The position numbers and the translations under genes were made by a program. Positions 22,704 through 32,404 of a stretch of DNA of 64,000 nt are shown piece by piece. The DNA comes from Sediminibacterium sp. (GTDB taxonomy: Bacteria; Bacteroidota; Bacteroidia; Chitinophagales; Chitinophagaceae). The stretch covers positions 124,001-188,000 of the forward strand of contig QYPL01000014.1 in NCBI GenBank assembly GCA_007280515.1. The letters are read 5' to 3'. The notes under the pieces were generated by a model that was given only the letters and a program-made list of their open reading frames with translations, did no database searches and was not told the DNA's origin. Within the stretch, counting starts at the first letter, position 1; each line of letters opens with the position of its first letter.

Positions 22704-22734
22704 GAGCCCTTGGTTACGACCAGGGGCTTTTTTT
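22704..22734 (+). terminator. Intrinsic terminator after small lipoprotein gene
   Basis: GAGCCCTTGGTtacgACCAGGGGCTTTTTTT: GC-rich hairpin plus T-run. Confidence 0.8.
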
Positions 22735-22798: not shown

Positions 22799-22830
22799 TT
22801 TGACAAATAAGCTATAAAAGCCTATCTTTG
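22799..22830 (+). promoter_or_regulatory. Bacteroidota-type promoter of the aromatic amino acid operon
   Basis: TTTG (22799-22802), 20-nt spacer, TATCTTTG (22823-22830), matching the TTTG...TAnnTTTG consensus. Confidence 0.7.
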
Positions 22831-22836
22831 GACCCG

Positions 22837-22923
22837 ATGAAAGCAAATATTAACAATTGGTTTTACTTTTTCTTTTATTTCTACTTTAACCAAAGTAGCC
22901 GGGTAGTATTTGTAAAAGCGTAA
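22837..22923 (+). CDS. Attenuator leader peptide MKANINNWFYFFFYFYFNQSSRVVFVKA
   Basis: 28-codon ORF directly after the promoter; codons 8-17 read W F Y F F F Y F Y F. Followed by a terminator hairpin and aromatic amino acid biosynthesis genes. Confidence 0.85.
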   Translation: MKANINNWFYFFFYFYFNQSSRVVFVKA

Positions 22924-22974
22924 ACGAAAAAACTAAATATACAATCCCGGCCCAAAAAGCCGGGATTTTTGTTT
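22881..22974 (+). promoter_or_regulatory. Transcription attenuator with alternative 1:2, 2:3 and 3:4 hairpins
   Basis: 1:2 = CTACTTT (22881-22887) / AAAGTAG (22892-22898). 2:3 antiterminator = GCCGGG (22898-22903) / CCCGGC (22946-22951). 3:4 terminator = AATCCCGGC (22943-22951) / GCCGGGATT (22959-22967) then TTTGTTT. Confidence 0.82.
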
Positions 22975-22997
22975 AAAAAATAATAGGGTCAAAAAGA

Positions 22998-23834
22998 ATG
23001 AATAAAAAAGTAGCCATACAAGGGTACGAAGGAAGTTTCCACCAAGTGGCAGCTAGGCATTTTTTTGGTAAAGATGTGGAAGTGATTACTTGCGACACAT
23101 TTCGACAAGTAGTTCAATTGGGAGCCGACGCCGCATTATCTGATGGAGCGGTGATGGCTATTGAAAACTCTATTGCAGGCAGCATACTGCCTAATTACAA
23201 TTTATTACAAAAAAGCAAGTTGCAAGTTACCGGTGAAGTGTATTTGTCTATCAGCCAAAACCTATTAACTTACCCGGGGGTGAAATTAGAAGATATTAAA
23301 GAAGTGCATAGTCATCCCATGGCTATCTTACAATGTTTAGATTATTTAGAAAAGTATAATTGGAAATTAGTAGAATCAGAAGATACTGCCTTAAGCGCCA
23401 AAATAGTGCATCAACATAAAAGTAAGCATACAGCAGCCATTGCAAGTAAGCTAGCTGCACAAATGTTTGATTTAAATATTATCAGTCCAGATATTCATAC
23501 TTTAAAAAATAATATTACTCGTTTCTTAATAGTAAGTCCAGCATGTACTAAAACTATGGTAGACCAAGCTAATAAGGCCTCTATCTATTTCCAAACCGAT
23601 CATTCTAAAGGCATACTCTCTAAGGTACTAGCCAAAATTGCCAATGGAAATGTGAATTTGAGTAAGCTACAAAGCATGCCTATTCCTGGTAGTACTTTTA
23701 AATATGGGTTTTATGCCGATTTAGAATTTGATAATAAAAAACAAATTGAAAAAGTATTAGAAGCATTGAAAGGGCTTACCAATAGTATAAGAATATTTGG
23801 CATGTATCAAAAAGGTAAAGTTGTAAAAGGATAA
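22998..23834 (+). CDS. pheA: Prephenate dehydratase with C-terminal ACT domain
   Basis: 278 aa; VAIQGYEGSFHQVAARHFFG, AIENSIAGSILPNYNLL, NNITRFLIVS, ACT region GILSKVLAKIANGNVNLSKLQSMPIPG. Confidence 0.92.
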   Translation: MNKKVAIQGYEGSFHQVAARHFFGKDVEVITCDTFRQVVQLGADAALSDGAVMAIENSIAGSILPNYNLLQKSKLQVTGEVYLSISQNLLTYPGVKLEDIKEVHSHPMAILQCLDYLEKYNWKLVESEDTALSAKIVHQHKSKHTAAIASKLAAQMFDLNIISPDIHTLKNNITRFLIVSPACTKTMVDQANKASIYFQTDHSKGILSKVLAKIANGNVNLSKLQSMPIPGSTFKYGFYADLEFDNKKQIEKVLEALKGLTNSIRIFGMYQKGKVVKG

Positions 23835-23836
23835 AC

Positions 23837-25000
23837 ATGAATTGGACTGTATCACATAGATTAGAGGGTATTGGAGAATATTATTTTTCTACCAAACTGC
23901 GCGAAATTGATGAGCTCAATAAAGCCGGTAAGGGCATTATTAATTTAGGTATTGGTAGTCCCGATTTACCTCCACACCCAGAGGTGGTTAAAGTGCTACA
24001 AGTCGAAGCAAGCAAAGACAATCAACATTCTTACCAATCCTATAAAGGCGTTCCGGTATTAAGAGAAGCGGTAGCAGGTTGGTATAAAAAATATTTCAAG
24101 GTAGCGGATTTAAATCCTGCTACTGAAATACTTCCTTTATTAGGAAGTAAAGAAGGAATCATGCATATATGCATGACCTATTTGAATGAAGGTGATCAGG
24201 TATTAATTCCTAATCCTGGTTATCCTACATATACAAGTGCAGTTAAATTAGCGGGTGGGACCCCGTTATACTATGAGTTGACTGCCGATAACAGTTGGGC
24301 GCCTGACTTTGAAAATTTAGAAAAATCAGATTTATCAAAAGTCAAGTTAATGTGGGTGAACTATCCACATATGCCAACAGGCCAAAGGCCTACGAAAGAA
24401 CTATTTGAAAAAATAGTCGCCTTTGGAATTAAGCATCAAATATTGATTTGTCATGATAATCCTTATGCCTTCATTTTAAATGATAAGCCTGAAAGCTTAT
24501 TGTCTATTGATAGGGCCAAAGAGGTAGTGATAGAATTAAACTCTCTAAGTAAAAGTCAGAATATGGCAGGATGGAGGGTAGGCATGTTAATTGCTGCCGA
24601 AGACAGAATCAATGAAATACTTAGGTTTAAATCCAACATGGACAGTGGTATGTTTTTACCCGTGCAATTAGCAGCTGCTAAAGCATTAAGTCTTGATCAA
24701 AGTTGGTATGACTCCGTGAATAAAATATATACAGCACGACGCGAAAAAGTATTCGAGTTATTAGATGTTTTAAAATGTGTCTACACTAAACAACAAGTAG
24801 GCATGTTTGTATGGGCCAAAATTCCCGCAACTTACAAAGATGCATATGCATTAAGTGATAAAGTATTATACGATGCGAACGTTTTTATTACCCCAGGAGG
24901 CATTTTTGGTTCCGCAGGCAATGACTACATCAGAGTGAGTTTATGTGGTTCCATAGAAAAATTTAGTGAAGCCATTAAAAGAATTGAAGCATGCGTTTAA
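23837..25000 (+). CDS. Class I/II PLP-dependent aminotransferase (probably aromatic/prephenate)
   Basis: 387 aa; INLGIGSPDLPPHPEVV, NPGYPTYTSAVKLAGG, ELNSLSKSQNMAGWRVGML (PLP Lys). Confidence 0.9.
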   Translation: MNWTVSHRLEGIGEYYFSTKLREIDELNKAGKGIINLGIGSPDLPPHPEVVKVLQVEASKDNQHSYQSYKGVPVLREAVAGWYKKYFKVADLNPATEILPLLGSKEGIMHICMTYLNEGDQVLIPNPGYPTYTSAVKLAGGTPLYYELTADNSWAPDFENLEKSDLSKVKLMWVNYPHMPTGQRPTKELFEKIVAFGIKHQILICHDNPYAFILNDKPESLLSIDRAKEVVIELNSLSKSQNMAGWRVGMLIAAEDRINEILRFKSNMDSGMFLPVQLAAAKALSLDQSWYDSVNKIYTARREKVFELLDVLKCVYTKQQVGMFVWAKIPATYKDAYALSDKVLYDANVFITPGGIFGSAGNDYIRVSLCGSIEKFSEAIKRIEACV

Positions 25001-25830
25001 CAGTCATTGGAATTGGTTTAATGGGAGGTTCACTGGCTTTGTCTTTGAAAAAGAAAGGCATGGTATCCAATGTCATTGGAGTGGATCAAAACATGGAACA
25101 CCAAAAACTGGCTTTGCAATTAGGCATTGTGGATGAAATCATGTCTTTAGAAGATGCGATAGCAGCTTCTGATTTGATTGCCATTGCAACACCTATTAAC
25201 GTAGCTGAAAATTTATTGCCCACTATTTTAAACTTAGTGAACAAGCAAGTTGTTTTTGATTTAGGTTCTACTAAAGAAAGTATTGTAAACATTGCCAAAG
25301 CGCATATTAACAAAGGTCGTTTTGTTCCTACCCATCCAATGTGGGGAACAGAATTCAGTGGTCCAGCAGCCGCACAAGATGATGCTTTTGCTGAAAAAGC
25401 CACCATCATTTGTAATAAAGAGCAGGTGGATGCAGACGCTTTACAATTGGTAGAAAAAATGTATCAAGCTTTAGGTATGCACATGCTTTATATGGATGCC
25501 ATTAAACATGACATACATGTAGCGTATGTGAGTCATATCTCACATATCACTTCTTTTGCACTAGCCAATACTGTGTTAGAGAAGGAAAAAGAGTCTGATG
25601 CTATTTTTGAGTTAGCAAGTAGTGGTTTTGAAAGCACCGTTCGTTTGGCTAAGTCCAATGCGGAAATGTGGGTGCCCATTTTCATGCAAAATAAAGAAAA
25701 TGTATTAGATGTTTTGAATGAGCATATTAGTCAATTAAAAAAATTCAAGGCAAGTTTGGAAAAAGAAAATCCAGACTATCTCTTGGAATTGATTCAAAAT
25801 GCAAATCAAATAAAAAGAATTTTAAAATAA
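24991..25830 (+). CDS. tyrA: Prephenate dehydrogenase
   Basis: 279 aa; Rossmann GIGLMGGSLALSL, DLGSTKESIV, PTHPMWGTEFSGP, HDIHVAYVSHISHITSFALA. Overlaps the upstream aminotransferase by 10 bp. Confidence 0.9.
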   Translation: MRLTVIGIGLMGGSLALSLKKKGMVSNVIGVDQNMEHQKLALQLGIVDEIMSLEDAIAASDLIAIATPINVAENLLPTILNLVNKQVVFDLGSTKESIVNIAKAHINKGRFVPTHPMWGTEFSGPAAAQDDAFAEKATIICNKEQVDADALQLVEKMYQALGMHMLYMDAIKHDIHVAYVSHISHITSFALANTVLEKEKESDAIFELASSGFESTVRLAKSNAEMWVPIFMQNKENVLDVLNEHISQLKKFKASLEKENPDYLLELIQNANQIKRILK

Positions 25831-25852: not shown

Positions 25853-27697
25853 GTGACTAAGCAAAAAATAGAAAAAATGAAGAAGAAAGAAGAAGTAGAA
25901 ATAAAAAATGATTTAATAGAAGCCGTAAAGTCGAAAAAAACATTTACTGAAATTGGTATTAATGATCAATTGGTTAAGGCCGTTACAGAATTAGGCTATA
26001 CGCATGCCACTGAAATTCAAGAGCGTTCTATTCCGGTTTTAATAAGTGGAACCAAGGATTTTATTGGTTTAGCACAAACAGGTACTGGAAAAACAGCCGC
26101 CTTTGGTTTGCCCTTATTACAATTAATTAAAACGGCAGATAAATTCCCCCAAGCCTTAGTGGTTTGTCCAACTAGAGAATTATGTATGCAAATTGTAAAC
26201 GAAATGAATTTGTTTAAAAAGCATATTCCAGGTTTGCAAGTATTAGCAGTTTATGGCGGAACTTCTATTGGACTACAAATTAAAGATTTAAAAAGAGGTG
26301 TACAAGTAGTAGTAGCCACTCCTGGTAGGTTAATTGATTTAATAGAAAGAAAGGCTATTAATTTAGAAAAGATTGAATACGTTGTTTTAGATGAGGCCGA
26401 TGAAATGTTAAATATGGGTTTCCAAGACGATATTGAATTTATCTTAAAAAATACACCTAATAGAGAAAGTATCTGGTTATTTAGTGCGACTATGCCTGCT
26501 GAAATTAGAAAAGTAAGTAAGCGTTACATGAAAGAGCCAGTGGAAGTAACTATTGGTAAGGTTAATGCGACGAACAAAAGTATTGACCATCAGTACTATT
26601 TAACTTCTGCACAACATCGTTATGAGACTTTAAAAAGAATCATCGATTTTAATCCAGGCATTTATGGTATCATCTTTACTAGAACCAAGGCCGATGCGCA
26701 AGAAGTAGCGCAGCGTTTAACGCGTGAGGGTTATGATATTGATGCCATCCATGGCGATTTAACACAACAACAACGTGATAGAGTCATGGGTCAATTCCGT
26801 GAAAAGAGTTTACAATTATTAATTGCCACCGATGTAGCTGCAAGAGGTATTGACGTAAAGGGTATTACCCACGTTATCAATTTTGAATTACCGGATGATG
26901 TAGAAGTGTATACCCATAGAAGTGGAAGAACTGGTCGTGCAGGTAGTGAAGGTATTTGTATATCTATTGTACATGCGCGTGAGTCTTACCGTTTGCGTCA
27001 GATTGAAAACATGAACAAGTGTACTTTCCATAAATTAGATATTCCTAGTGGTAAGGATGTTTGTAGAAAACAATTTTTCCATGTAATGGATAAATTAATG
27101 TCTACCGATGTAAGCCATGGCGATTATGAAACTTATGTTCCAATGCTAGCAGAGAAATTTGCTGATATGAGTAAGGAAGAAATTTTAAAGCGTGTCGCTG
27201 CTTTAGAGTTCAACCGTTTTTTAAGTTATTATGAGAATGCACAGGATTTAAATATTCGTGCAGCCGATAAAGGACGTCGTGAGCCGATGCAACAACAAGA
27301 TCGTAACCGTGATAGAGGTCGTCAAGAATTTGGTGGCGCCGATCGTGGTCGCAAAAGAAGTAATGATCGTGGAATGGAGCGTAGTTCATCAGATCGAGGA
27401 AGTCGCGGTGCAGAAAGAGGCGCTAGCGGTTACACTCGTTTATTTGTGAACTTAGGTACCAAGGATGGTTTTTACAAGGCTAGTTTTTTACAATTTATTT
27501 TAGACATGAGCGATTTAAGAAAAGAAGCTTTAGGAAAAATAGATATGCGTGATATGAATAGCTGGGTAGAAATTGAGTCAGGTGCTGCTATGCAAATGAT
27601 TAATGCCCTAGATGGTAAAAACTATAAAGGGCGTCGTATTAGAATGAATGATGCAGATAGTGGTGGACCTAAAGGCTTTTCTAAAAGAGAGGGTTAA
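25853..27697 (+). CDS. DEAD-box RNA helicase with RG-rich linker and DbpA-type RNA-binding C-terminus
   Basis: 614 aa; AQTGTGKTAAFGLP, PTRELCMQ, LDEADEMLNMGF, FSATMP, HRSGRTGRAG, basic RNRDRGRQEFGGADRGRKRS linker, GYTRLFVNLGTKDGFYKASFLQFI domain. Confidence 0.93.
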   Translation: MTKQKIEKMKKKEEVEIKNDLIEAVKSKKTFTEIGINDQLVKAVTELGYTHATEIQERSIPVLISGTKDFIGLAQTGTGKTAAFGLPLLQLIKTADKFPQALVVCPTRELCMQIVNEMNLFKKHIPGLQVLAVYGGTSIGLQIKDLKRGVQVVVATPGRLIDLIERKAINLEKIEYVVLDEADEMLNMGFQDDIEFILKNTPNRESIWLFSATMPAEIRKVSKRYMKEPVEVTIGKVNATNKSIDHQYYLTSAQHRYETLKRIIDFNPGIYGIIFTRTKADAQEVAQRLTREGYDIDAIHGDLTQQQRDRVMGQFREKSLQLLIATDVAARGIDVKGITHVINFELPDDVEVYTHRSGRTGRAGSEGICISIVHARESYRLRQIENMNKCTFHKLDIPSGKDVCRKQFFHVMDKLMSTDVSHGDYETYVPMLAEKFADMSKEEILKRVAALEFNRFLSYYENAQDLNIRAADKGRREPMQQQDRNRDRGRQEFGGADRGRKRSNDRGMERSSSDRGSRGAERGASGYTRLFVNLGTKDGFYKASFLQFILDMSDLRKEALGKIDMRDMNSWVEIESGAAMQMINALDGKNYKGRRIRMNDADSGGPKGFSKREG

Positions 27698-27789: not shown

Positions 27790-28875
27790 ATGGGAGACTT
27801 AACAGAACAACAAGAAAAAGTAAGCATTTTATTAAAAAAATCGCCCTTGATTATTTCTGGTCCTTGTAGTGCGGAGACCGAAGAACAAGTGATGCAAACA
27901 GCGATTCGTTTAGCTGCTACTGGTAAAGTAGATATTATGCGTGCAGGCATATGGAAGCCAAGAACCAGACCCGGAAGTTTTGAAGGTATTGGAACAAAAG
28001 GTTTGCCATGGATGCAACAAGCTAAAAAAGAAACAGGTTTGCCTATTGCTATAGAAGTAGCGACTGCTAAGCAAGTAGAAGATGCTTTACATTTTGGTGT
28101 GGATGTATTATGGATAGGTGCACGTACCACTGTGAACCCTTTTAGTGTGCAAGAAATTGCAGACTCATTAAAAGGAGTGAAAGTGCCTGTACTTATTAAA
28201 AATCCCATTAATCCAGATTTAGAATTATGGATTGGTGGCATGGAACGTATTGCCAAAGCAGGTATTGAAGAATTAGGTCTCATTCACCGTGGATTTAGTT
28301 CTTATGGAAATACTGAATACCGTAATGCACCTATGTGGCATTTGGCCATTGAAATGAAACGTCGTTATCCAGGTATTCCTATGATCAATGACCCTTCACA
28401 TATTTGTGGACGCCGCGATATTTTACAAGAAGTAGCACAACAAGCCATTGACTTAGACTTTGATGGTTTAATTATTGAATCGCATATCGACCCAGACAAT
28501 GCTTGGAGTGACGCGAAACAACAAATTACCCCTGAGGTATTGAAAACAATGTTGGAAGCCATTCGTTGGAGAAAAGAAGACGTTGCTTCTGCTGAATATC
28601 ATGCAGCGCTAGAAAAATTACGTCAACAAATTAATCAATTAGATGATGAGTTGTTACAAGTTTTATCAACGCGTATGAAAGTGGCTGAAAAAATTGGCGA
28701 GTATAAGAAAAATAATGATATCACTATTTTACAAACCAATCGTTGGAATGAAATTTTAGAGCGTGCGGTAGGTAAAGGAAGTAAAGTAGGCTTAAGTGAA
28801 GACTTTATCACTAAGTACATGGACGCCGTGCATATGGAAAGTATCAATCATCAAAATAAAATAATGAATAGCTAG
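27790..28875 (+). CDS. Bifunctional DAHP synthase / chorismate mutase (type II)
   Basis: 361 aa; ISGPCSAETEEQVMQTA, MRAGIWKPRTRPGSFEG, C-terminal LRQQINQLDDELLQVLSTRMKVAEKIGEYKKNNDI chorismate mutase helix. Confidence 0.93.
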   Translation: MGDLTEQQEKVSILLKKSPLIISGPCSAETEEQVMQTAIRLAATGKVDIMRAGIWKPRTRPGSFEGIGTKGLPWMQQAKKETGLPIAIEVATAKQVEDALHFGVDVLWIGARTTVNPFSVQEIADSLKGVKVPVLIKNPINPDLELWIGGMERIAKAGIEELGLIHRGFSSYGNTEYRNAPMWHLAIEMKRRYPGIPMINDPSHICGRRDILQEVAQQAIDLDFDGLIIESHIDPDNAWSDAKQQITPEVLKTMLEAIRWRKEDVASAEYHAALEKLRQQINQLDDELLQVLSTRMKVAEKIGEYKKNNDITILQTNRWNEILERAVGKGSKVGLSEDFITKYMDAVHMESINHQNKIMNS

Positions 28876-28973: not shown

Positions 28974-29996
28974 ATGAAAAACTGGAAAGTAAAATTTTCG
29001 TCTCAGACAGTATCTTTTTTTTTAGAGGGTAAGTTTGCTGCTATTGATAAAATGGTAGACAAGTCTAATGCTTTTTACATTACAGATGAAAATGTATATG
29101 CCTTACATCAAAAAAAATTCAAAGGAAAGAAAACTATTGTCATTCCTGCTGGGGAAGAGCATAAGCATCAAGCTACCACTGACTTTATTATTGAAGCCTT
29201 ACTTAATCTAGGCGCCACAAGAGAGGCGGTATTAATTGGTGTGGGCGGTGGTGTGGTCACTGATATGGTAGGTTATGTGGCAGGTATTTACATGCGTGGA
29301 GTAGCGGTAGGTTTTGTGCCTACTACTATTTTAGCCATGGTAGACGCTTCTATTGGTGGAAAAAATGGAATTGATGTTGGATTGTATAAAAATATGGTAG
29401 GCTTAATAAGACAACCCTCTTTTTTAGTATACGACATTGATTTTTTAAAAACCTTACCCAAACATCAGTGGGAAAACGGGTTTGCAGAAATAATTAAACA
29501 CGCTGCCATTAAAGATGCGGCTATGATGAAGGCTTTAGCAAGTCATGACTTGTCTTATTATCAGAAAAATAAAAAAGCCTTACAGCTTTTAATAGAAAAG
29601 AATGTACATATTAAAGTGAAAGTAGTTCAACAAGATGAGTTTGAAAAAGGCGCTCGCAAGTTACTGAACTTTGGACATACCCTTGGACATGCCATTGAAA
29701 ACCAACATGCTTTATTACATGGCCATGCTATTAGTATTGGTATGGTGTATGCTGCTAAAATTTCTCAAGTAATAGAAGGTTTTAATGATACGGGTTTATT
29801 AGTAGATACTTTGAAAAAATATGGGCTACCCACTAGTATGCGTTTTGATATAGACCAAGCCATGCAAATTATGCAGAAGGATAAGAAAAAGACAGGGGCA
29901 TCGATGCAATATGTACTACTGAAAAAAATGGGAAAGGCAGTGTATCAAACTGTACCAATGAAATCATTAGAAAAATTAATAAAATTGTATTCTTAA
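28974..29996 (+). CDS. aroB: 3-dehydroquinate synthase
   Basis: 340 aa; VIPAGEEHKHQATTDFI, IGVGGGVVTDMVGYVAGIYMRGV, TTILAMVDASIGGKNGID, LNFGHTLGHAIE. Confidence 0.95.
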   Translation: MKNWKVKFSSQTVSFFLEGKFAAIDKMVDKSNAFYITDENVYALHQKKFKGKKTIVIPAGEEHKHQATTDFIIEALLNLGATREAVLIGVGGGVVTDMVGYVAGIYMRGVAVGFVPTTILAMVDASIGGKNGIDVGLYKNMVGLIRQPSFLVYDIDFLKTLPKHQWENGFAEIIKHAAIKDAAMMKALASHDLSYYQKNKKALQLLIEKNVHIKVKVVQQDEFEKGARKLLNFGHTLGHAIENQHALLHGHAISIGMVYAAKISQVIEGFNDTGLLVDTLKKYGLPTSMRFDIDQAMQIMQKDKKKTGASMQYVLLKKMGKAVYQTVPMKSLEKLIKLYS

Positions 29997-29997
29997 A

Positions 29998-31359
29998 ATG
30001 CGCGCGATAGTTCATCCAAGTAAACTAAGTGGTTCGCAAACAGCACCAGCGAGTAAAAGCTCTATGCAAAGGGCATGTGCTGCAGCTTTACTACATATTG
30101 GAAAAACTATTATCCATAATCCGGGTCATTCAAATGATGATATATCCGCCTTGGAAGTGATTCAAAAATTAGGGGCTGTTGTTGAAATAGAGAAACTATC
30201 TACTGAAAAAATAAATACTAGCACTATAGCCGTAAACTCTAATGGGGTAAAGCCCGTTGGTCCTGCAATGAACTGTGGTGAAAGTGGCTTAGGTATTAGA
30301 ATGTTTACACCTATTGCAGCATTAAGCGATCAATTGATAAACATAGAAGGCAGAGGAAGCCTGGTGAAAAGACCCATGCATTTTTTTGATGAGATATTAC
30401 CATTAGTGGGTGTAAAAGTACAGTCACAGAAAGGTTTTTTACCCATAGAAATTCAAGGTCCCTTAGTGCCAGCGAATATTACGATTGACGGTTCATTAAG
30501 TTCTCAATTCTTAACGGGTATGTTAATGGCTTATGCGGCTAGCGAAAAGCATAACGTTGAAATTAAAGTCATAGACTTAAAAAGTAAACCCTATATCGAT
30601 TTAACTTTATCGGTTTTAAATGCATTTGGTTGGAAGGTAGAACATACGAATTATGAAAGCTTTCGTTTTTTAGCGCATGCGCCATTAAAACCTTTGATAG
30701 AATATACGGTGGAAGGAGACTGGAGTGGCGCTGCTTTTTTATTAGTAGCAGGTGCTATTGCAGGTCCCATAAAAGTAAAAGGGTTGCAATTAAATTCTAC
30801 ACAGGCCGATAAAAAAATAATGGAAGCGCTTCAAACAGCAAAGGCAAATATGAAGCTAGAGGAAGATGGAATTTTGATAGGCCCTGCAGAGAATATTACA
30901 AGTAATAACTCTAAAAATAACTTTAAAGATAATTCTAATGATAATTCTATTAATTCAATTGGGTTAACGGCTTTTGAATTTGATGCCACAGATTGCCCCG
31001 ATTTATTTCCTCCACTTGTTGCATTAGCAATTGTTTGTAATGGTATTACCAAAATAAAGGGAGTGAGCAGGCTTGCACATAAAGAAAGTGATAGAGGGCT
31101 TAGTTTGCAAACAGAATTTGCAAAAATGGGCATTCAAATAGATTTACAGGGAGACGAAATGCTTATTCATGGGGGAGCTGTCATTCAATCAGCTACTGTT
31201 TTCTCTCAACACGATCATAGAATTGCCATGGCATGTGGGGTGGCGGCTTTAGTGGCTAATGGTCCTATTGAAATTACAGAAGCGGAAGCGATCAATAAAT
31301 CTTATACCGATTTCTTTACCCATTTGCAAGAATTGGGGGCGAAAGTAGATATACAATAA
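29998..31359 (+). CDS. aroA: 3-phosphoshikimate 1-carboxyvinyltransferase (EPSP synthase)
   Basis: 453 aa; ASKSSMQRACAAALL, NCGESGLGIRMFTPIAAL, GSLSSQFLTGMLMAYA, DHRIAMACGVAAL. Confidence 0.93.
   Translation: MRAIVHPSKLSGSQTAPASKSSMQRACAAALLHIGKTIIHNPGHSNDDISALEVIQKLGAVVEIEKLSTEKINTSTIAVNSNGVKPVGPAMNCGESGLGIRMFTPIAALSDQLINIEGRGSLVKRPMHFFDEILPLVGVKVQSQKGFLPIEIQGPLVPANITIDGSLSSQFLTGMLMAYAASEKHNVEIKVIDLKSKPYIDLTLSVLNAFGWKVEHTNYESFRFLAHAPLKPLIEYTVEGDWSGAAFLLVAGAIAGPIKVKGLQLNSTQADKKIMEALQTAKANMKLEEDGILIGPAENITSNNSKNNFKDNSNDNSINSIGLTAFEFDATDCPDLFPPLVALAIVCNGITKIKGVSRLAHKESDRGLSLQTEFAKMGIQIDLQGDEMLIHGGAVIQSATVFSQHDHRIAMACGVAALVANGPIEITEAEAINKSYTDFFTHLQELGAKVDIQ
30901..30960 (+). repeat. Five degenerate 12-bp tandem units inside aroA
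   Basis: agtaataactct / aaaaataacttt / aaagataattct / aatgataattct / attaattcaatt, encoding SNNS-KNNF-KDNS-NDNS-INSI. Confidence 0.8.
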
Positions 31360-31390
31360 ATTTCTTACCTTGTATTAACGAAATAAAAAT

Positions 31391-32404
31391 ATGAACAAAT
31401 TCGGGACCTTATTTACAGTACAAATTTTTGGCGAGTCGCATGGTGCTTGTGTGGGTATTACTATTGATGGTTGCCCAGCGGGTTTACCATTACAAGTAGC
31501 AGATTTTGAAGAAGATATGGAGCGCCGTAAAGGGGGTAAGCAGAAAGGAACAACACCACGTCAAGAAGATGATATACCTATTTTTAAAGCAGGTTTATTT
31601 AATAATATTAGTACAGGAGCACCTATCATGATGCTTTTCGAAAATAATAATACTAGAAGTGGTGATTATGAAAAACAACGTGCTGTGCCAAGACCTGGTC
31701 ATGCCGATTTTACAGCGCACCATAAATTTGGCGGCTTTGAAGATTATAGAGGGGGAGGACATTTCAGTGGAAGGTTAACAGCTGCCTTGGTGGGTGCCGG
31801 TGTAGTGGCAAAGAAATTATTAAATGCAGGAAAAATAGAAGAAATAATTAAAGTAGAAGCTACTATTAAAAGTATTGGCGGAGAATCAGATGTAGAAAAA
31901 GGAATACAGAAAGCTATTGAACAAAAAGATAGTGTAGGCGGTATTGTTGAATGTGTGGTGAAAGGATTGCCCATAGGATTAGGAGAACATTTTTTTAATT
32001 CAGTGGAGTCTTTAATTAGCCATGCAGTTTTTGCTATTCCTGCTATTCGTGGTATTGAATTTGGAACTGGCTTTGCTGCGGCTAACATGTTTGGTGCGGA
32101 TCATAATGATGCTATTATAGACGCTTCAGGAAAAACAAAAACCAATCATGCAGGTGGCGTGGTAGGGGGTTATACGAATGGCAATGACCTAGTATTTAGA
32201 ATTGCGGTGAAACCAACTTCTTCTACCCCCAAAGAACAAGTAACGCTAAATTGGGAAACCAATGAAACAGCGCCCTTTTCAGTAAAAGGAAGACACGATT
32301 TATGTATAGCCCTAAGAGTGCCTGTCGTTTTAGAAGCAGTCACTGCCATTGTGCTTGCAGACTTAATGTTAATAGATCAAAAAATTCCAAGAATCATTAA
32401 ATAA
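31391..32404 (+). CDS. aroC: Chorismate synthase
   Basis: 337 aa; GESHGACVGITIDGCPAGLPL, RRKGGKQKGTTPRQEDD, RPGHADFTAHHKFGGFEDYRGGGHFSGR. Confidence 0.96.
   Translation: MNKFGTLFTVQIFGESHGACVGITIDGCPAGLPLQVADFEEDMERRKGGKQKGTTPRQEDDIPIFKAGLFNNISTGAPIMMLFENNNTRSGDYEKQRAVPRPGHADFTAHHKFGGFEDYRGGGHFSGRLTAALVGAGVVAKKLLNAGKIEEIIKVEATIKSIGGESDVEKGIQKAIEQKDSVGGIVECVVKGLPIGLGEHFFNSVESLISHAVFAIPAIRGIEFGTGFAAANMFGADHNDAIIDASGKTKTNHAGGVVGGYTNGNDLVFRIAVKPTSSTPKEQVTLNWETNETAPFSVKGRHDLCIALRVPVVLEAVTAIVLADLMLIDQKIPRIIK

Follow-up and report, generated by a model that had tools for sequence, protein, structure and literature searches.

A predicted phenylalanine/tyrosine leader-peptide attenuator upstream of pheA in Sediminibacterium and other Chitinophagaceae

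In the genome of a Sediminibacterium sp., the prephenate dehydratase gene pheA is preceded by a short open reading frame with an unbroken series of aromatic codons and by a putative intrinsic terminator. This locus raises the question whether the genes for phenylalanine and tyrosine biosynthesis are controlled by transcription attenuation and, if so, which amino acids are sensed and how the pairing of the leader RNA depends on its translation.

The leader ORF and the downstream gene cluster

The window analyzed, i.e., the whole stretch of DNA under study, comprises 64,000 nucleotides (nt) and contains the following features relevant to this question. By PheA identity (up to 95%), its nearest named records are Sediminibacterium and freshwater MAGs related to it.

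22799..22802, plus strand: TTTG, candidate -33 element (sequence and family pattern)
22823..22830, plus strand: TATCTTTG, candidate Bacteroidota sigma-A -7 box (TAnnTTTG), predicted transcript start at about 22835
22837..22923, plus strand: leader peptide ORF of 28 codons, product MKANINNWFYFFFYFYFNQSSRVVFVKA
22858..22887, plus strand: putative sensor, leader codons 8-17 (W F Y F F F Y F Y F), based on sequence, codon statistics, and chance and folding tests
22881..22887, plus strand: region 1, CTACTTT, the final codons of the aromatic run (cognate-partner test for 1:2)
22892..22903, plus strand: region 2, with AAAGTAG at 22892-22898 (partner: region 1) and GCCGGG at 22898-22903 (partner: region 3)
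22943..22951, plus strand: region 3, AATCCCGGC, 5' arm of the terminator and 3' arm of the antiterminator
22959..22971, plus strand: region 4, GCCGGGATT, and T-run of the intrinsic terminator (region 4 itself 22959-22967)
22998..23834, plus strand: pheA, prephenate dehydratase (Pfam PF00800, PDT, 1.1e-53)
23837..25000, plus strand: class I/II aminotransferase (Pfam PF00155)
24991..25830, plus strand: tyrA, prephenate dehydrogenase (Pfam PF02153, PF20463)
25853..27697, plus strand: DEAD-box RNA helicase with DbpA domain (Pfam PF00270, PF00271, PF03880)
27790..28875, plus strand: DAHP synthase fused to chorismate mutase (Pfam PF00793, PF01817)
28974..32404, plus strand: aroB (28974-29996), aroA (29998-31359) and aroC (31391-32404) (Pfam matches)

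The sequence-only reading of this DNA had described a 28-codon ORF with ten aromatic codons, a terminator 19 nt past its stop codon and then prephenate dehydratase, and all of these were borne out. Codons 8-17 read TGG TTT TAC TTT TTC TTT TAT TTC TAC TTT, and the intrinsic terminator (22943-22967) consists of nine pairs, six of them G-C, and a loop of 7, followed by the T-run. No other stretch of at least eight aromatic codons is present in the whole window. When 200 windows were simulated with a Markov-1 model, runs of at least eight aromatic codons appeared at a rate of 0.01 per window and runs of at least ten did not appear in any of them, so a ten-codon run would not be anticipated by chance. 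The locus thus shows an arrangement typical of attenuators, a short ORF rich in codons for the product amino acids upstream of a biosynthetic operon. A strong terminator at 22704-22729 belongs to the preceding Ala/Thr-rich reading frame and parts that frame from the leader transcript. Between aroB, aroA and aroC no convincing terminator was found. The helicase gene between tyrA and the DAHP synthase gene stands out in a cluster that otherwise belongs purely to the aromatic pathway.

Conservation of the aromatic run, the pairings and the promoter box

The upstream regions of pheA orthologues were compared, as the sequence-only reading had proposed. The 104 loci came from 149 Chitinophagaceae genomes, and 600 nt upstream of each were scanned. 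A Phe/Tyr-rich leader, nearly always accompanied by a terminator, precedes pheA at 101 of the 104 loci: 99 are ATG-started ORFs with a dense aromatic run, one starts with GTG (L083) and one is degenerate (L087). An intrinsic terminator lies between leader and pheA for 95 of the 99. In genome G050, where pheA is located on a separate contig, the leader instead precedes the aminotransferase-tyrA pair, and in G042 and G076, which possess pheA, no leader was detectable. A covariance model (R1) gave a single strong match in the window's own genome (E 2.8e-13; next match 0.02), the weak matches being dropped for want of an aromatic leader. It also detected this leader arrangement ahead of pheA in several further families of Bacteroidia; one additional match (L190) was false. 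Aromatic leaders of the same kind precede a DAHP synthase gene in L192, which belongs to another family of the class, and tyrA in a member of the Chitinophagaceae (L168), the latter with a YYYWYY run. Two public MAGs labelled Comamonas and Ignavibacteriaceae (L220, L281) carry a Chitinophagaceae-type pheA locus with leader and are likely to contain mis-binned contigs.

Within the runs of the 99 leaders, 887 of 972 in-frame codons specify Phe, Tyr or Trp, compared to 27-29% in the other two frames. The counts are 376 for TTT, 175 for TAC, 167 for TTC, 155 for TAT and 14 for TGG. Phe and Tyr codons interchange freely, with synonymous variation in addition, which indicates that the constraint is on "a Phe or Tyr codon" rather than on a particular RNA or peptide.

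The leader had been proposed to combine Trp, Phe and Tyr. For Phe (99/99 runs) and Tyr (98/99) this holds across the family, but Trp occurs in only 14 of the 99 runs, and trpE, located on the same contig about 39 kb upstream of pheA, possesses a WWW leader of its own, MKQTNNIWWWHTKSFRVL, with a terminator (L195:1320-1376, G000:C30, outside the window) and a TAGATTTG box about 15 nt before its ATG. This trpE leader is present with terminator in 8 of 11 relatives from the genus, the other three adjoining contig ends; it matched no Rfam family, Bacteroid-trp (RF01692) included. We therefore refer to a Phe/Tyr leader, in which a Trp codon is optional. A truly tri-aromatic attenuator, in which the Trp codon that opens the run serves as a functional third sensor, given that chorismate for Trp is also a product of the cluster, appears unlikely to us. 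In its favor, all leaders of the freshwater Sediminibacterium clade to which the window belongs (40 leaders, 18 distinct) have the Trp codon, some other genera have one in the same position, and in the folds described below 2:3 can also form while a ribosome waits at codon 8. Against this reading stand, besides the separate trpE leader and the low frequency in the family, the ratio of a single Trp codon to nine Phe/Tyr codons and the absence of Trp from other members of the genus, namely the leaders of S. magnilacihabitans and S. soli. The Trp codon may have a minor role limited to the freshwater Sediminibacterium clade.

The three pairings named earlier, 1:2, 2:3 and 3:4, were examined by alignment-free partner swapping, for 2:3 because MAFFT applied to whole leaders misregistered region 2 between two sub-families. 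Cognate partners paired better than swapped ones for 1:2 (z -7.5), 2:3 (z -13.5) and 3:4 (z -19.8). Since the sequences share ancestry, the swaps were repeated in two ways. With the partner of the nearest relative, 1:2 (p 0.002) and 3:4 (p 0.0003) became worse, while the change for 2:3 was not significant (p 0.12) because its core is nearly invariant within Chitinophagaceae. With 18 divergent class-wide sequences, 0 of 20000 permutations equalled the cognate pairing for each of 1:2, 2:3 and 3:4. In the family alignment the 3:4 terminator helix shows two-sided changes at 6 of 9 pairs, and 97.5% of its cells are paired. Regions 2, 3 and 4 also change in a matched manner, being GCCGGGA/TCCCGGC/GCCGGGA in most of the Chitinophagaceae, AGCGGGA/TCCCGCT/GCGGGA in L183, GGCAGGA/TCCTGCC/GGTGGGA in L186 and GATCGGGT/ACCCGATC/GATCGGGT in L081; such three-way compensatory changes in the compared sequences support a role for all three regions. 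The nucleotides just 3' of the aromatic run (AGxxGCCGGG...) are read in different frames among relatives, giving SSRVVFVKA, RPGMLLLK or PGCFC, which indicates that in region 2 the RNA and not the peptide is conserved. Aromatic run and pairings proposed for this locus are thus both conserved features of the family.

A TAnnTTTG box starts 12-18 nt before the leader ATG, most often 15, in 71 of the 99 leaders (0.17 expected), and in most Chitinophagaceae leaders a TTTG or TTGG element is found 22-24 nt upstream of the start of this -7 box. In the remaining families of the class, leaders that have the box carry it at a greater distance, about 24-39 nt before the ATG. The rules for predicting the start were taken from other bacteria: in Flavobacterium psychrophilum, the TAnnTTTG box occupies positions -12 to -5 of the start site (PMC9723704). 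From this position and the spacing between box and ATG, a 5' UTR of 0-6 nt is predicted, and of 2 nt in the window. UTRs this short are rare in the phylum. Leaderless mRNAs make up 5.5% in F. psychrophilum (PMC9723704), and about 3.7% of the 5' UTRs of Bacteroides thetaiotaomicron are shorter than 10 nt (PMC7366714).

Dependence of the predicted folds on ribosome position

For the folding predictions, the ribosome was assumed to cover 12 nt past the A-site codon, a footprint length taken from other bacteria, and the RNA 3' of it was treated as free. In the full-length leader, the terminator won at equilibrium at every ribosome position. An equilibrium switch in the complete leader RNA was therefore rejected, and if a switch exists it must work kinetically; it was seen only in truncated nascent RNA. 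When the nascent RNA of the window ended at or just after region 3, the predicted probability of the antiterminator was near 1 as long as one of codons 8-16 occupied the A site. At codon 17 it was 0.7-0.98, and it fell to 0 once the ribosome had reached codon 18, with which the aromatic run is over, or a later codon. Among the 95 terminator-bearing relatives, 2:3 remained possible up to the last aromatic codon of the run in 34 and up to the second-last in 55 (89/95), and with the ribosome at the leader stop codon 2:3 was gone in 94 of the 95. The distance between region 2 and the aromatic run is conserved among the relatives. To our mind, this match in the modelled folds between the end of the run and the loss of the antiterminator constitutes the strongest evidence for an attenuation mechanism. 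By computation, then, an antiterminator rivals the terminator in a manner that depends on the position of the ribosome.

In E. coli attenuators, untranslated leader RNA terminates, since helix 1:2 excludes 2:3. This logic, which had been assumed for the locus, did not hold in the folds. The 1:2 and 2:3 helices overlap in a single base (22898), and in nascent folds without a ribosome they formed together in the window and in 67 of 95 relatives, 2:3 as such being present in 85 of 95. The three named pairings thus all exist, but they are not all mutually exclusive; according to the folding model, only 2:3 and 3:4 compete. As a consequence of the co-formation, untranslated leader RNA should read through.

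We estimate at about 0.92 the probability that the leader acts as a ribosome-mediated transcription attenuator which senses the charging of Phe-tRNA and Tyr-tRNA and controls the pheA-aminotransferase-tyrA cluster, possibly also the aro genes behind it. The comparison shows the leader, the promoter box, the terminator, conserved 2:3 and 3:4 pairing and a conserved geometry; sequence and position are likewise kept across Chitinophagaceae, and the arrangement also occurs outside the family, in accordance with the earlier proposal of an amino-acid leader-peptide attenuator ahead of a Phe/Tyr operon. Termination, stalling of the ribosome, the near-leaderless start and the identity of the acting amino acids are predicted from these features. 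Transcription would begin some 2 nt upstream of the leader ATG, with a ribosome following closely on RNA polymerase. With ample Phe and Tyr, it would leave the aromatic run, cover region 2 (GCCGGG) and reach the stop codon; regions 3 and 4 would then pair and transcription would end near 22970. A ribosome waiting at any of the aromatic codons would leave region 2 free to pair with region 3 ahead of the synthesis of region 4, so that the terminator would not form and pheA would be transcribed. Helix 1:2 may represent a pause hairpin by which polymerase and ribosome remain synchronized.

More tentatively, and at somewhat less than even odds, we consider a Bacteroidota-specific, leaderless or near-leaderless Phe and Tyr sensor in which untranslated RNA reads through by default, termination requires a ribosome past the aromatic codons, and 1:2 serves as a pause or coupling signal and not as an anti-antiterminator. 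If true, this would imply tight coupling of transcription and translation from the first bases of the transcript in a phylum without Shine-Dalgarno-driven initiation. Ribosome recruitment in Bacteroidota differs from that in E. coli, and the predicted near-leaderless start would allow initiation to be tested directly.

The preference of the full-length RNA for the terminator might also suggest that the terminator is constitutive and simply follows an upstream ORF that is translated; readthrough would then be set by polarity or Rho instead of alternative pairing, and the leader would only feed ribosomes to the operon. This is very improbable, because region 2 is kept regardless of frame, its complementarity to region 3 extends across families, and its spacing to the run is conserved, none of which polarity needs. 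Even less probable is a trans-acting function, of the conserved leader peptide or of the terminated RNA, in place of attenuation, as known for peTrpL and rnTrpL of another attenuator, that of Sinorhizobium meliloti (PMC7298713), since the part following the run differs in frame and sequence among relatives and hence the only property of the peptide that is conserved is its being aromatic; attenuation may nonetheless be accompanied by a trans role.

Relation to known attenuators

The predicted Phe/Tyr attenuator shares with the E. coli pheA and pheST attenuators and with Phe_leader (Rfam RF01859) a Phe-rich leader, overlapping pairings, an intrinsic terminator and pheA downstream. It differs from them by the mixed run of Phe and Tyr codons, the wide aromatic gene cluster behind it, a Bacteroidota promoter box a few nt from the ATG, and a 1:2 helix compatible with 2:3. 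The covariance model of RF01859 scored 39.2 bits (E 1.9e-5), below the Rfam gathering score of 55, and at the Rfam cut-offs no family matched the pheA leader. The model of Bacteroid-trp (RF01692), a proposed leader of an aromatic amino-acid (trp) operon, gave no match to the pheA leader. The two have in common that a cis-regulatory leader in Bacteroidetes is proposed; Bacteroid-trp is listed as cis-regulatory and for this taxon in the table of Weinberg 2010 (PMC2864571).

In the same phylum, leader-peptide attenuation 5' of amino-acid biosynthesis operons has been reported in general terms for F. psychrophilum (PMC9723704); the likeness to our case rests on this general description, which in the passages considered gives neither leader sequences nor a list of operons. 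In S. meliloti, the attenuator transcript of trpL starts at the leader start codon or right beside it (PMC7298713), which is a Trp system of Alphaproteobacteria, whereas the near-leaderless start described here is predicted from the promoter box. A described Phe/Tyr leader in Bacteroidota was not found in the openly accessible literature searched, in which a 2010 comparative study by Lopatovskaya and colleagues is cited (PMC4833913). The novelty suggested for this locus consequently stands with respect to Rfam, but not with respect to leader-peptide attenuation in the phylum, given the outline report for F. psychrophilum (PMC9723704). The mechanism as such is already known; what we predict to be new are the pheA leader family, the mixture of Phe and Tyr, the near-leaderless start and the non-exclusive 1:2 helix.

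These leaders would add a widespread, uncatalogued attenuator family to Bacteroidota, for which the cultured genera Sediminibacterium, Lacibacter and Segetibacter offer testable models. As attenuation needs a ribosome close behind RNA polymerase, its family-wide conservation argues for coupled transcription and translation in Bacteroidota.

In two other loci (L132 and L128, about 1470-1640), an Ile/Val-rich frame (IINIIILMAIVIIIPALNGGCAI in L132) and a terminator precede a gene for a branched-chain aminotransferase (ilvE-like), which is followed by an ilvD-like gene. This is probably an Ile/Val attenuator of the same type.
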